From contig JAFQZB010000295.1 in NCBI GenBank assembly GCA_017406175.1, forward strand, positions 1 to 33,352: a DNA stretch of 33,352 nucleotides, read 5' to 3'. Positions 27,809 to 31,368 of the stretch are shown piece after piece. The translations under genes and the position numbers were made by a program. Position 1 is the stretch's first letter, and each line of letters opens with the position of its first letter. The notes beneath the pieces are model-generated. The model had not been told where the DNA came from. It made no database searches and saw only the letters and a list, made by a program, of their open reading frames with translations. Source of the DNA: Selenomonadaceae bacterium. Lineage in GTDB: Bacteria; Bacillota; Negativicutes; Selenomonadales; Selenomonadaceae.

Positions 27809-28779
27809 TGTTAGAAAAAATTTTGGAAGAAGCGGTACGCCTCGACGCCTCGGACGTTCATCTGACGGTGGGGCAACCGCCTTTTTTTCGTGTAGGCGGC
27901 GAACTCTTCCAAGCGGGCGCAGCGTTGACGGTTAAGGCGGTTGAAGACTTCTTAGACGTGCTGTTATCGTCGAGACTTCGCAGGGAGCTTGAAAATCACT
28001 TGGTGGTTGACTTCTCTTACGTCGCAGAAAATTTATCGCGTCGCTTCCGCGTGAACGTCTACTATCAGCGAAAAGTTCCCGCGCTTGCCCTGAGACTAAT
28101 CGCCAAAGAAATCCCGACGCTTGACGAATTGGGCGCACCGCCCGCGCTAAAGAATTTCTTCCACGCCGCGCAAGGTTTAATCCTCGTGACGGGGCGGACG
28201 GGTTCCGGCAAATCAACGACGCTTGCCGCCTTCCTAAACGAGCTTTGCAAAGTGCGCCCGTGTCACTTGCTGACGTTGGAAGACCCAATCGAATTCGAGT
28301 ACGCGGCGGAGGGTTCTTTCATCAGCCAAAGGGAACTCGGACAAGACTTTTTGAACTTCGCGGCGGCAGTGCGGACGGCTATGCGCGAAATGCCCGACGT
28401 GTTGTTAATCGGAGAGATTCGCGACGCCGAAACCATGCACGCGGCACTTGAGGCATCAGCGGCGGGCGTCTTGGTCTTAGCGACGTTGCACACGCGGTCG
28501 GCGGCTGAAACGGCAATGCGTGTCGAGACGATGTTCCCGCTCGTGCAACGCGACGCAATCCGCGACCTATTCGCCGACGAGTTCAGCGCGATAATATCTC
28601 AACAGCTCGTCAAGACCTCAAGCGGGCGGCGTTGTGCGGCAGAAGTCCTAATCGCTAATCCGGCGGCTCGTTCACTGATTCGGCAGGGCAAGTACGTCCA
28701 ACTGCCAAACGTTATGATGAGCGGGCGGGCACAAGGTATGCAGACAATGGACGCGGCATTAAAGGCGGTCGGCTTATGA
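27808..28779 (+). CDS. pilT: PilT-like pilus retraction ATPase
   Basis: A 323-residue secretion ATPase. The N-terminal PAS-like part has DASDVHLTVGQPPFFRVGG. The core has Walker A GRTGSGKS (129-136), the Asp box TLEDPIEF, an atypical Walker B IGEIRD (201-206) and the His box LATLHT (H228). The C-terminal AARSLIRQGKYVQLP resembles the PilT AIRNLIRE motif and GMQTMD follows, so PilT fits better than the extension ATPase PilB or GspE, which are longer. It drives fibre disassembly at the inner membrane. Its ATG overlaps the PBP1A stop by one base; its stop overlaps pilC by four. No PilB is in the window. Confidence 0.88.
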   Translation: MLEKILEEAVRLDASDVHLTVGQPPFFRVGGELFQAGAALTVKAVEDFLDVLLSSRLRRELENHLVVDFSYVAENLSRRFRVNVYYQRKVPALALRLIAKEIPTLDELGAPPALKNFFHAAQGLILVTGRTGSGKSTTLAAFLNELCKVRPCHLLTLEDPIEFEYAAEGSFISQRELGQDFLNFAAAVRTAMREMPDVLLIGEIRDAETMHAALEASAAGVLVLATLHTRSAAETAMRVETMFPLVQRDAIRDLFADEFSAIISQQLVKTSSGRRCAAEVLIANPAARSLIRQGKYVQLPNVMMSGRAQGMQTMDAALKAVGL

Positions 28780-29969
28780 AATTCAAGTACAAAGGCTACG
28801 ACGCGACGGCGACTGAACAGAGAGGCACCCTTGAGGCGGACAACTACGCAGAAGCCTACGCCGCATTGAGTTATCAGGGCGTCAAAGTCGTCAAGCTCGA
28901 ACAGACGCAAGCAAACTTCCTGCAGACGGCGGAGAACTTTTACCTTAAGCTCAAACTCGGCGGACAATGGCGGGCTGTCTTCTTCCGTGAACTAAGCGTA
29001 ATGCTCGGCGTGATGACTTTGCACGACTCGTTGAGGACTTTGGCGGGCGCGGCGAAGAATCATCCTTCCGAAAAGATTTTAAATGACCTCGTGGCGGCTG
29101 TCGGCGAAGGACAAAACTTTTACGAATCCCTCGGACGCTATGAATCAATCTTCGGCGGCGATGAGATTCAATCAGTCGAAATCGGTGAGACCAGCGGCAA
29201 CCTCCAGGACGTGACAGCACGGCTTGCCAACCAACTCGAACGCAACTATTCAACGCAAAAGAAAGTTCGCGGCGCAATGTATTATCCAGTGTTCGTGCTA
29301 ATGGCAGCATTCGTGGCGGCGGTCGTCTTAGTCAACGTAACCTTGCCTGTTTTTGAAAATTTCTTCGCTCAGCAGGGCGGCGAACTCCCGCTGATAACGC
29401 TGATACTTCTACACGGCGGAAAGTTCTTAGCGGAGCATTGGCTAATAATCGTCGTGGCATTGGCGTTAGGCGGCGTGATGGGCGTATGGATTGTTCAGCG
29501 CGTCGAAGGTGTCCGATTTCTCCTCGACGGTCTCAAATTGAAGTTCCGTCTCCTGCGCGAAGTCGAGCTTAGGAATTTCTTCGGGCGGTTGAGTTTCCTA
29601 CTGGAAAGCGGCGTGACGCTAGACGAGGCAATCAAGCTGTGCGCGGCGGCGAGTAATAATCTTGTCGTGCGGAAGGTCTTGACTGAGATAAAATTTTCGG
29701 TGGAGCGCGGCGGAAGCTTTGCGGCACTGGTCGCCAAGGAAAAGTTCCCACCGCTGTACGTCGGCTTAATCGTAACTGGCGAGGCGGGCGGCGAACTTGT
29801 CAACATGCTCCGTCAATGCGAGTCGATGGCTGACTTTGAAGTCGAAGAGATATTGCGCACCCTTCCCGCCAAAGCAGAAATTTTCGGAACGCTAATCGCC
29901 GGATTAATCGTGGCGACTCTGGTCTTTGCCGTCATGCTACCGATATTGGACACGACAAACCTACTTTAA
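28776..29969 (+). CDS. pilC: PilC/GspF inner membrane platform protein
   Basis: A 397-residue polytopic protein with two repeated T2SSF domains: FFRELSVMLGVMTLHDSLRTL in the first and FFGRLSFLLESGVTLDEAIKL in the second. Membrane segments lie at about 168-192, 216-240 and 368-392. The first domain is followed by IGETSGNLQDVTARLANQLE and the second by IVTGEAGGELVNMLRQCESM, the paired signature of this family. It couples the cytoplasmic ATPase to pilin assembly or removal. Translation is coupled to pilT through ATGA. A noncoding multi-hairpin element of about 180 bases separates it from ftsE. Confidence 0.93.
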   Translation: MKFKYKGYDATATEQRGTLEADNYAEAYAALSYQGVKVVKLEQTQANFLQTAENFYLKLKLGGQWRAVFFRELSVMLGVMTLHDSLRTLAGAAKNHPSEKILNDLVAAVGEGQNFYESLGRYESIFGGDEIQSVEIGETSGNLQDVTARLANQLERNYSTQKKVRGAMYYPVFVLMAAFVAAVVLVNVTLPVFENFFAQQGGELPLITLILLHGGKFLAEHWLIIVVALALGGVMGVWIVQRVEGVRFLLDGLKLKFRLLREVELRNFFGRLSFLLESGVTLDEAIKLCAAASNNLVVRKVLTEIKFSVERGGSFAALVAKEKFPPLYVGLIVTGEAGGELVNMLRQCESMADFEVEEILRTLPAKAEIFGTLIAGLIVATLVFAVMLPILDTTNLL

Positions 29970-29989
29970 CAAATTGCCCCGTATGCTTT

Positions 29990-30126
29990 TACGCCCGCGA
30001 AGAAGACGACCGGCTCGCATGGACGCGAGCCGCGCCGCGTTTGAAACATGGATGTTTCATAGCGGCGTCTACGCCCCTGCGAGGCGAATTTCTTTGCTAC
30101 TTTCTTTCTTCGCTGAAAGAAAGTAG
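29990..30126. repeat. Noncoding element with three consecutive hairpins
   Basis: The 184-base gap between pilC and ftsE contains three inverted repeats: 30011-30018 with 30025-30032 (8 of 8), 30042-30049 with 30052-30059 (8 of 8, 2-base loop) flanked by CGCCGC and GCGGCG that pair outside it, and 30097-30108 with 30115-30126 (12 of 12, 6-base loop TTCGCT). No credible gene is present. The last hairpin lacks a T-run, so it is not a normal terminator. The look is that of an interspersed palindromic repeat (REP/BIME-like); similar TTTCTTTC ... GAAAGAAA palindromes recur in other genomes as I recall. It may stabilise the pilC mRNA end or have a replicative origin. Confidence 0.7.
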
Positions 30127-30153
30127 ACCACAAAAAATTTAGGAGAAAACGTG

Positions 30154-30888
30154 ATGATTCACTTAAAAGACGTGACGAAACTTTACAAATCAAATGGCGT
30201 GGTTGCCCTAGACAAGGTGACACTCGACATTGAGCGCGGCGAGTTCGTGTTTATCGTCGGGACAAGTGGCTCTGGCAAGTCTACGCTGATGAAACTTCTA
30301 ATGCATGAGGAGGTTGCAACTTCCGGAAGTATAATCGTAAACGGCAAGGACGTAACCCACCTCAAGCAAAAGGAAGTCCCTTACCTGCGGCGGTCGCTGG
30401 GCGTCATATTCCAAGATTATCGACTGCTTGAGGATAAGACGGTTTATGAGAACGTCGCCTTCGCTATGCAAGTTATCGAGGCTCCGCGCAGGATTATGCA
30501 ACGCTCCGTCAATACCGTGCTGGACATCGTCGGCTTGCGTGACAAGTTCAAAAGCTTTCCCGCACAATTAAGCGGCGGCGAGCAACAACGCGTCGCGATT
30601 GCCCGTGCGATTGTCAACGACCCGCGAATAGTCATCGCCGACGAGCCGACTGGCAACCTCGACCCAGAAACCAGTTGGGACATTATGGACATATTTCAGC
30701 GAATCAACGCGGCGGGCACGACCATTGTTATGGCGACGCACGATAAAACTATCGTCGACCAAATGCAACGGCGCGTTATCGCTATCGAAGGCGGCAAGAT
30801 TACTCGTGACGAAGCCCGCGGCGTTTACTCCGAGAATCAGCCAGAGCCGCCGACGCCTTACAATAAATTCTTCCCGTTCAAGAGGTAG
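30154..30888 (+). CDS. ftsE: Cell-division ABC ATPase FtsE
   Basis: A 244-residue ABC ATPase. Walker A is GTSGSGKST, the Q-loop area [21 protein letters not shown] is typical of FtsE, the signature is [14 protein letters not shown] and Walker [13 protein letters not shown], with H-loop ATHD. FtsE with the membrane protein FtsX controls peptidoglycan hydrolases and division. Here no ftsX follows; the next gene is a pseudopilin 6 bases downstream. The ATG at 30154 has AGGAG 8 bases before it; a GTG at 30151 is also possible. The C-terminal stretch ([13 protein letters not shown]) is an extra tail. Lying among pilus and wall genes, it may also serve envelope remodelling for the fibre, an inference. 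Confidence 0.9.
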
Positions 30889-30894
30889 GCTATC

Positions 30895-31368
30895 ATGCAA
30901 AAGGGAATCACGACGCTTGAAGTTGTCCTCGCGGCACTGATAATCGCCTTGCTAATGAAAGTCGCCATTCCGAACGCCACACGCCTTGTCGACAGAGCCG
31001 CCCTAGACTACGAGACCAAACGACTTTACAGCGAGCTTAGGTTTTTGCAGACAGTGAACAGGTCAGCGAAATTTGACGCTACGGGCACGGGGTCTAGCGG
31101 CGTCGGCGATGTGCTTTCGATAAAGTTCACGACCGAGCCGCCGAGCTATCAAGTTGTGCGCGGCTTAGGTTATACAGGCAAGCCCGTCCGCGAGGTGCAT
31201 TATCTTTCCTACGGCGTGAAATTCTCTTCGCCAAGCTCAAGCGTCCATTTCGATTCGCAAGGCAAAGCCAGCATCACTAGCAATCACATAACGCTGACAT
31301 CGCGGCTCGGCAAGACAAAGAAAATCTCCTTCGATAGCGTTGGACGTATGCAAGGTGCTAACCAATGA
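30895..31368 (+). CDS. GspH/FimT-like minor pseudopilin
   Basis: A 157-residue protein with a short leader (MQKG) and a prepilin-type start: cleavage after G4, then ITTLEVVLAALIIALLMKVAI with E at position 5 of the mature form. The first mature residue is Ile, not the usual Phe or Met, so processing could be slower. The rest is a soluble beta-rich region with GVGDVLSIKF and VHFDSQGKASI, the GspH/FimT-like pattern. It would be processed by a prepilin peptidase, which is not in the window. It follows ftsE by 6 bases, has a ribosome binding site (AGAGGTAG) in the ftsE end, and its stop overlaps the next start (ATGA). Family by context is good; the specific subtype is moderate. Confidence 0.82.
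   Translation: MQKGITTLEVVLAALIIALLMKVAIPNATRLVDRAALDYETKRLYSELRFLQTVNRSAKFDATGTGSSGVGDVLSIKFTTEPPSYQVVRGLGYTGKPVREVHYLSYGVKFSSPSSSVHFDSQGKASITSNHITLTSRLGKTKKISFDSVGRMQGANQ

Follow-up and report, generated by a model that had tools for sequence, protein, structure and literature searches.

Among the systems already described, short, modular, palindromic repeats that fill intergenic regions in many copies are represented by the REP/BIME and BOX elements, which the element described here resembles in these respects. Its own genome, however, lacks a RAYT and, to our knowledge, neither its loop sequences nor its predicted triplex tail are features of REP/BIME or BOX elements.

Another comparable molecule is TwoAYGGAY (RF01731), listed as a probable RNA of the human gut, gamma-Proteobacteria, and Clostridiales in the relevant part of one survey (PMC2864571) and proposed in a passage of another article to sequester CsrA (PMC4333381). 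It shares with the element two adjacent hairpins with AYGGAY loops. Unlike TwoAYGGAY, the element stays below the gathering score of that family, has no long closing stem of the kind found in Marinobacter relatives, and occurs in many dispersed copies with an attached tail.

Intrastrand triplex motifs (ITxF; TMECO/BoxC/PIT) provide a parallel for that tail. In the portion of Holder et al. (PMC4666352) used here, they are presented as dispersed, intergenic, single-strand motifs without a link to gene orientation; class IV is defined by the order of its tracts, an order that the tail also has, and pyrimidine-type intrastrand triplexes are said to occur in RNA too. TMECO is described there as a G/C-rich repeat with a purine motif, whereas the tail is an A/T-rich pyrimidine motif. 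It also differs from TMECO in carrying a pairing clamp (S1), which would turn it into a pseudoknot, and in riding on a two-hairpin module. The SAM-V riboswitch, in the section of its description drawn on here, likewise has a loop 1 that leaves the stem junction and follows the purine strand of stem 2 in parallel, but the element is a repeat, its structure is only predicted, and it has no known ligand or protein. In the open literature, which leaves most subscription journals outside the search, neither a dispersed form of TwoAYGGAY nor a triplex repeat in Quinella or Selenomonas was found described. The kinds of parts are known; their combination was not found in print.

The insertion between pilC and ftsE

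The element is a dispersed, probably mobile, non-coding repeat found in a rumen bacterium and in related genomes. The copy in the window (the whole stretch of 33,352 nucleotides that was analysed), from a genus that is probably Quinella (Selenomonadaceae) on sequence grounds, lies between a pilC/gspF-type ORF (28776-29969) and ftsE, whose ORF runs from 30151 with a conserved ATG at 30154. An inverted-repeat scan of the window placed hairpin H1 at 30011-30032 (8 bp, loop ATGGAC) and a second inverted repeat at 30042-30059 (8 bp around GG), which, read as RNA, has 6 bp, the loop ATGGAT, and an additional outer CGCCGC/GCGGCG stem. The third repeat, at 30097-30126, is a perfect 12-bp stem with a 6-nt loop, a pattern with a chance expectation of 0.00 occurrences in the window. 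All 200 dinucleotide shuffles of the three-hairpin stretch fold less well than the stretch itself (z -4.6).

An earlier note on this DNA had described three hairpins here, the last a perfect 12-bp stem, in a gap with no gene and no T-run, and the scans agree with it on each point. The sole ORF across the element is an 85-aa antisense frame, taken as spurious, and a coding gene was rejected. No T-run follows the hairpins on their 3' side, and a terminator scan of 28700-31000 returned 3 matches against 3.8 expected, with one weak match inside the element; an intrinsic terminator, which would consist of a GC-rich hairpin and a U-run, was dismissed accordingly. An ordinary Rfam family was also discarded, with no family matched anywhere in the window at curated cut-offs. 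The note's length of about 120 bases understates the element, as the insertion measured against the empty site covers 29969-30141, with TTTA at each flank.

This empty site is found in a close relative (G169) whose FtsE is 97% identical. There, the pilC stop overlaps the ftsE ribosome-binding site (TTTACTTTAGGAGATAACGTGATG); in the window, the order is TTTA, 169 nt, TTTA, GGAG, and the pilC stop is separated from the ribosome-binding site because of the insertion. The features of the window copy, all on the plus strand, are as follows.

29965..29968, plus strand: TTTA, left copy of a direct repeat and candidate target-site duplication; the empty site in G169 (locus L220) reads ..TTTACTTTAGGAGATAACGTGATG, and TTTA stands on both sides of the window insert
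29969..30137, plus strand: the inserted element, delimited by comparison with relatives' empty pilC-ftsE junctions
29969-29998, plus strand: non-consensus 5' part of the insert, about 30 nt; the family 5' end lies at about 29999 by comparison of copies
30011..30032, plus strand: hairpin H1 with a CsrA-site-like GGA loop, AUGGAC (30019-30024); covariation in 17 own copies and the TwoAYGGAY core match
30033..30067, plus strand: hairpin H2, outer stem 30033-30038/30062-30067, inner stem 30042-30047/30054-30059, loop AUGGAU (30048-30053); covariation and GGA retention
30068..30083, plus strand: linker, by copy comparison; many copies have CGCCCCTGCGAGG here, others a longer linker or none
30084..30088, plus strand: S1a, GCGAA, 5' strand of predicted pseudoknot stem 1; pairs with 30109-30113, and S1 covaries across copies
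30089..30096, plus strand: L1, pyrimidine tract TTTCTTTG, proposed third strand parallel to 30116-30122; family-wide mirror relation to S2a
30097..30108, plus strand: S2a, CTACTTTCTTTC, 5' strand of stem 2; pairs with 30115-30126 over 12 bp without a mismatch
30109..30113, plus strand: S1b, TTCGC, 3' strand of stem 1; S1 pairing and covariation
30114, plus strand: L3, one base
30115..30126, plus strand: S2b, GAAAGAAAGTAG, purine strand of stem 2; complement of S2a
30138..30141, plus strand: TTTA, right copy, running into the ftsE ribosome-binding site TAGGAG (30140-30145); empty-site comparison

The window copy has no terminal inverted repeats of the MITE kind, since its two ends (about GAAG and AAAGTAG) do not mirror one another as reverse complements. 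Part of 29969-29998 resembles the sequence 3' of H2 (direct repeat D1).

Copies and empty sites in related genomes

In the genome of origin (3.5 Mb in 410 contigs), a nucleotide search with a limit of E=10 matched 48 places, of which about 20 are clear. With a covariance model of H1 and H2 trained on 17 own copies, there are 27 places at E<=1, including 24 at E<=0.01, and the true number may be higher since several copies lie at contig ends. The earlier note had suspected a dispersed palindromic repeat, proposed a genome-wide count, and named a single copy as evidence to the contrary; the 24 places, together with many copies in sister species and empty sites in relatives, uphold its suspicion. 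Under strict filters, the same model gave matches at E<=0.01 in 28 of 151 genomes of the family and none in the other 123. The same genus, with the own genome included, accounts for 19 of these 28, with up to at least 35 matches per genome; the other nine belong to four other genera and have 1 to 4 weak matches each.

Several subgroups of copies are visible. In an own subfamily (L060, L062, L064, L066-L068), about 40 to 60 extra nucleotides separate H2 from the tail, and in L066-L068 the H2 loop has GTGAT in place of GGA. One copy is common to L047 (G000), L249 (G136), and L130 (Quinella sp. 1Q5), and it has undergone a double compensatory change in H2 between species (GAATC..GATTC versus GAAAC..GTTTC). 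L130 was returned by an exact-pattern scan of named genomes and shares its flanks with the own copy L047, on which the probable assignment to Quinella is based. In G165, the tail pattern was counted at 26 places, and all 21 of those listed are identical, which suggests a recent expansion in one species.

Among 29 ftsE loci of relatives, the end of pilC leads to ftsE without an insert in seven (L220, L221, L224, L225, L230, L231, and L240), and most of the remaining relatives have a different gene or spacer upstream of ftsE. At the pilC-ftsE junction of a sister species (L226 in G147), an independent insert belongs to another subfamily of the element. For eight other own sites, the joined flanks were searched in four relatives. 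At four of these (L051, L054, L055, and L059), one or more relatives had the flanks joined in a single match; the gap size suggested occupied sites for L048, L058, and L061, and L056 gave neither result. The empty-site alignments cover three of the sites, L051, L054, and L055, the last in two relatives. The short duplication is clear at the window site alone (TTTA), the other empty sites having diverged. The mobility of the element is supported by its empty sites. No mobilising gene for it was identified, which counts against the explanation preferred below.

The hairpin pair and the tail

The 5' half resembles the two-hairpin core of TwoAYGGAY but fails the curated test. Positions 30011-30067 align with model positions 49-108 at 31.4 bits, with a gathering score of 43 that is reached by none of the own copies (the best has 40.3). 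TwoAYGGAY was nevertheless the best Rfam match, under an E-value threshold, for all five loci tried. The pairing of H1 and H2 is borne out by covariation in 17 own copies, in which 99.1% of cells are paired and the covariation value is 0.396 versus 0.118 after shuffling, with none of 500 shuffles as high. In a survey of 106 copies from ten genomes, GGA is retained in 105 of 106 H1 loops and in 105 of 106 H2 loops; the search model was trained on GGA and favours its retention, but the stems vary far more. The base preceding GG may be T, A, C, G, or missing.

ANGGA is the consensus of CsrA sites. The own genome encodes csrA, next to an ORF that we take to be FliW-like, and csrA is present in 36 of the 41 genomes of the genus search. 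Its presence gives no correlation with the element, because csrA also occurs in genomes where the strict-filter search found no copies (G040, G092, G098, G117, G128, and G146). From their sequence, the H1 and H2 loops look like docking sites for CsrA and may bind this protein.

TwoAYGGAY-like cores are also dispersed in several genomes of Marinobacter and its relatives (L101-L214, e.g., L106, L129, L150, and L151). Each is enclosed by a closing stem of at least 15 near-perfect pairs, and the sequence of this stem changes between copies, as if every core sat in a different palindrome. In the closing stems of 49 distinct copies from named, mostly gamma-proteobacterial relatives, 9 G:T mismatches were counted versus 1 A:C (p=0.02), an excess that hints at action as RNA there; a looser closing-helix count of 129 to 38 may repeat shared positions and was set aside in favour of the stricter one.

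The 3' half contains more than the perfect 12-bp hairpin of the earlier description, which is predicted to be part of an H-type pseudoknot. In the window copy, S1 and S2 interleave in the corresponding arrangement, and each of the two stems has its own covariation. A script delimited 125 modules in the loci examined, of which 121 remained after a spacer filter, with a few wrong-strand reads left in. S1 has at least 4 contiguous pairs in 98 of the 121, compared with a mean of 42 and a maximum of 57 after loop shuffling; in the other 23, a 4-pair S1 is missing, which speaks against the preferred explanation. In 16 modules of equal length, 97.3% of S1 and S2 cells are paired, with a covariation of 0.217 versus 0.081 in shuffles (0 of 500 as high). 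In this set, 4 of 5 S1 pairs have changed on both sides, and S2 has 1 of 11 pairs so changed, plus length changes among copies. The S1 pairs observed include CGTCC/GGACG, CGCCC/GGGCG, TGTCC/GGACA, TGCCC/GGGCA, CACCC/GGGTG, and GCGAA/TTCGC.

A further regularity links L1 to S2a, both of which consist of a T-run, a C, and a T-run. A direct copy of S2a is what Watson-Crick competition for the purine strand would require of L1; as a parallel Hoogsteen strand, L1 would have to be the mirror image, the relation that governs parallel Y.R-Y triple helices. The two cases can be told apart only where the runs are unequal, and the window copy, being symmetric (3-3), is uninformative by itself. Across 120 distinct modules, with counts that are non-independent since copies within a genome are related, 62 fit the mirror order only, none the direct order only, 5 both, and 4 neither, and 49 are symmetric. 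The mirror-only modules come from 18 genomes and include the forms 3-4/4-3, 4-3/3-4, 3-5/5-3, and 4-5/5-3. In a model-free pattern test of the order, whose 189 genomes belong to a single family, the 3-4/4-3 mirror form occurs at 424 places in 58 genomes (36 of the same genus, own included, and 22 of other genera); the corresponding direct form occurs in none of the 189.

Ordinary covariation can be mimicked by replication-template correction of inverted repeats, which should not give mirror order. Nor should Watson-Crick pairing yield it, and mirror-order covariation is in effect a signature of third-strand pairing. The topology agrees with a triplex, as L1 departs from S1 where S1 meets S2 and is bound to follow S2b in the 5'-3' direction. 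Hoogsteen, pyrimidine, and purine tracts follow one another 5'-3' as in class IV, with a parallel third-strand match of 7 triplets in the window copy. The sequence changes of the tail thus fit a three-stranded helix, which is predicted on this basis. The third hairpin was rejected as a simple hairpin, given that S1 pairing and the mirror rule show more.

Interpretation and significance

The anatomy, dispersal, and mirror rule of the element are well supported. The explanation preferred here, with a probability of roughly 0.6, is that of a non-autonomous mobile intergenic repeat which joins a TwoAYGGAY-type hairpin pair to a class IV triplex motif in an H-type pseudoknot and folds as a single strand. 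Its family core would measure about 130 to 185 nt and be spread through the window's genus, with ANGGA loops in the 5' hairpin pair and, in the 3' half, an intrastrand triplex motif clamped by the short S1. We infer that selection acts on the folded single strand, which may be ssDNA in replication or transfer, or RNA, and that an enzyme outside the Y1/RAYT family would move the element. Less surely, the two GGA loops of sense-transcribed copies may bind the genome's own CsrA, in which case the copies together could act as scattered CsrA binding sites. The uncoupling of pilC and ftsE translation by the window insertion would be a by-product. Besides the missing mobilising gene and the modules without a 4-pair S1, several observations tell against this explanation: Rfam scores below the cut-off in every Quinella copy, no surplus of sense copies, no RNA-strand bias in the Quinella stem mismatches, csrA in genomes where the strict-filter search had no match, and a short duplication that is clear at a single site.

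Whether copies respect the direction of their neighbours bears on the other explanations as well. Neighbours were called by a simple codon model for 87 of the 106 copies, with 19 dropped for a missing neighbour. The usable copies comprise 26 sense co-directional, 32 antisense, 19 convergent, and 10 divergent cases, without an excess of sense over antisense (p=0.51). The copies ignore gene direction, and the element therefore does not depend on sense reading by a neighbour, nor is regulation of host genes the common purpose of its copies. This strand neutrality speaks against a tuning function for neighbouring genes that all copies would share, and it weighs on the very unlikely view that the element is a cis-acting attenuator, processing, or stabilising element setting pilC and ftsE to different levels, a split of the operon that the earlier note had also supposed. 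Such a role would suit its strong fold, its place between two co-directional genes, and the overlapping stop and ribosome-binding site at the relatives' junction, but the insertion is absent in relatives, the family is found in unrelated contexts and in both directions, and no terminator was found above chance. The least probable of the explanations is a palindromic repeat of the REP/BIME type that depends on a RAYT (Y1 transposase) for its movement. Dispersed, intergenic, palindromic, multi-module copies in either orientation would be expected of it, but the RAYT-type transposase that the earlier note had proposed to look for did not appear: Y1_Tnp (PF01797) is without a match in the own genome, is matched in 6 of the 41 genus-search genomes, and, among the many-copy genomes (G000, G134, G140, G113, G147, and G148), is present in G113 only. 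This explanation was rejected.

The same neutrality favours a purely DNA-level structural repeat, comparable to the TMECO/BoxC triplex motif of E. coli, that folds as a single strand, stalls replication, and promotes local change; its GGA loops would be retained merely through the descent of copies from a few masters. This is an unlikely account. The Quinella stems are almost perfect, and their few mismatches have no RNA-strand bias (G:T to A:C of 4:4 in H1 and 1:3 in S2). TMECO/PIT motifs, too, are reported without correlation to orientation or gene function in the pages consulted (PMC4666352). Against it stand the retention of GGA in both loops next to a variable preceding base, the two-loop design that recurs, enclosed by unrelated closing stems, in Marinobacter, Haliea, and Lachnospiraceae, and the 9 to 1 preponderance of G:T over A:C in those stems. 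An improbable further idea is a SINE-like element of bacteria with RNA as its moving form, in which the 5' CsrA-site hairpins and a 3' exonuclease-blocking triple-helix pseudoknot would be kept for that reason. If true, this would account for the preservation of the loops and of the triplex rule in spite of insertions that take no heed of the orientation of adjacent genes.

The preferred explanation of a mobile, single-strand-folding repeat also has wider implications. The hundreds of copies in sister species offer a chance to ask what a natural triplex does, and a proposed CsrA-binding motif carried on a mobile repeat may be a route by which a global regulator gains and loses its sites.
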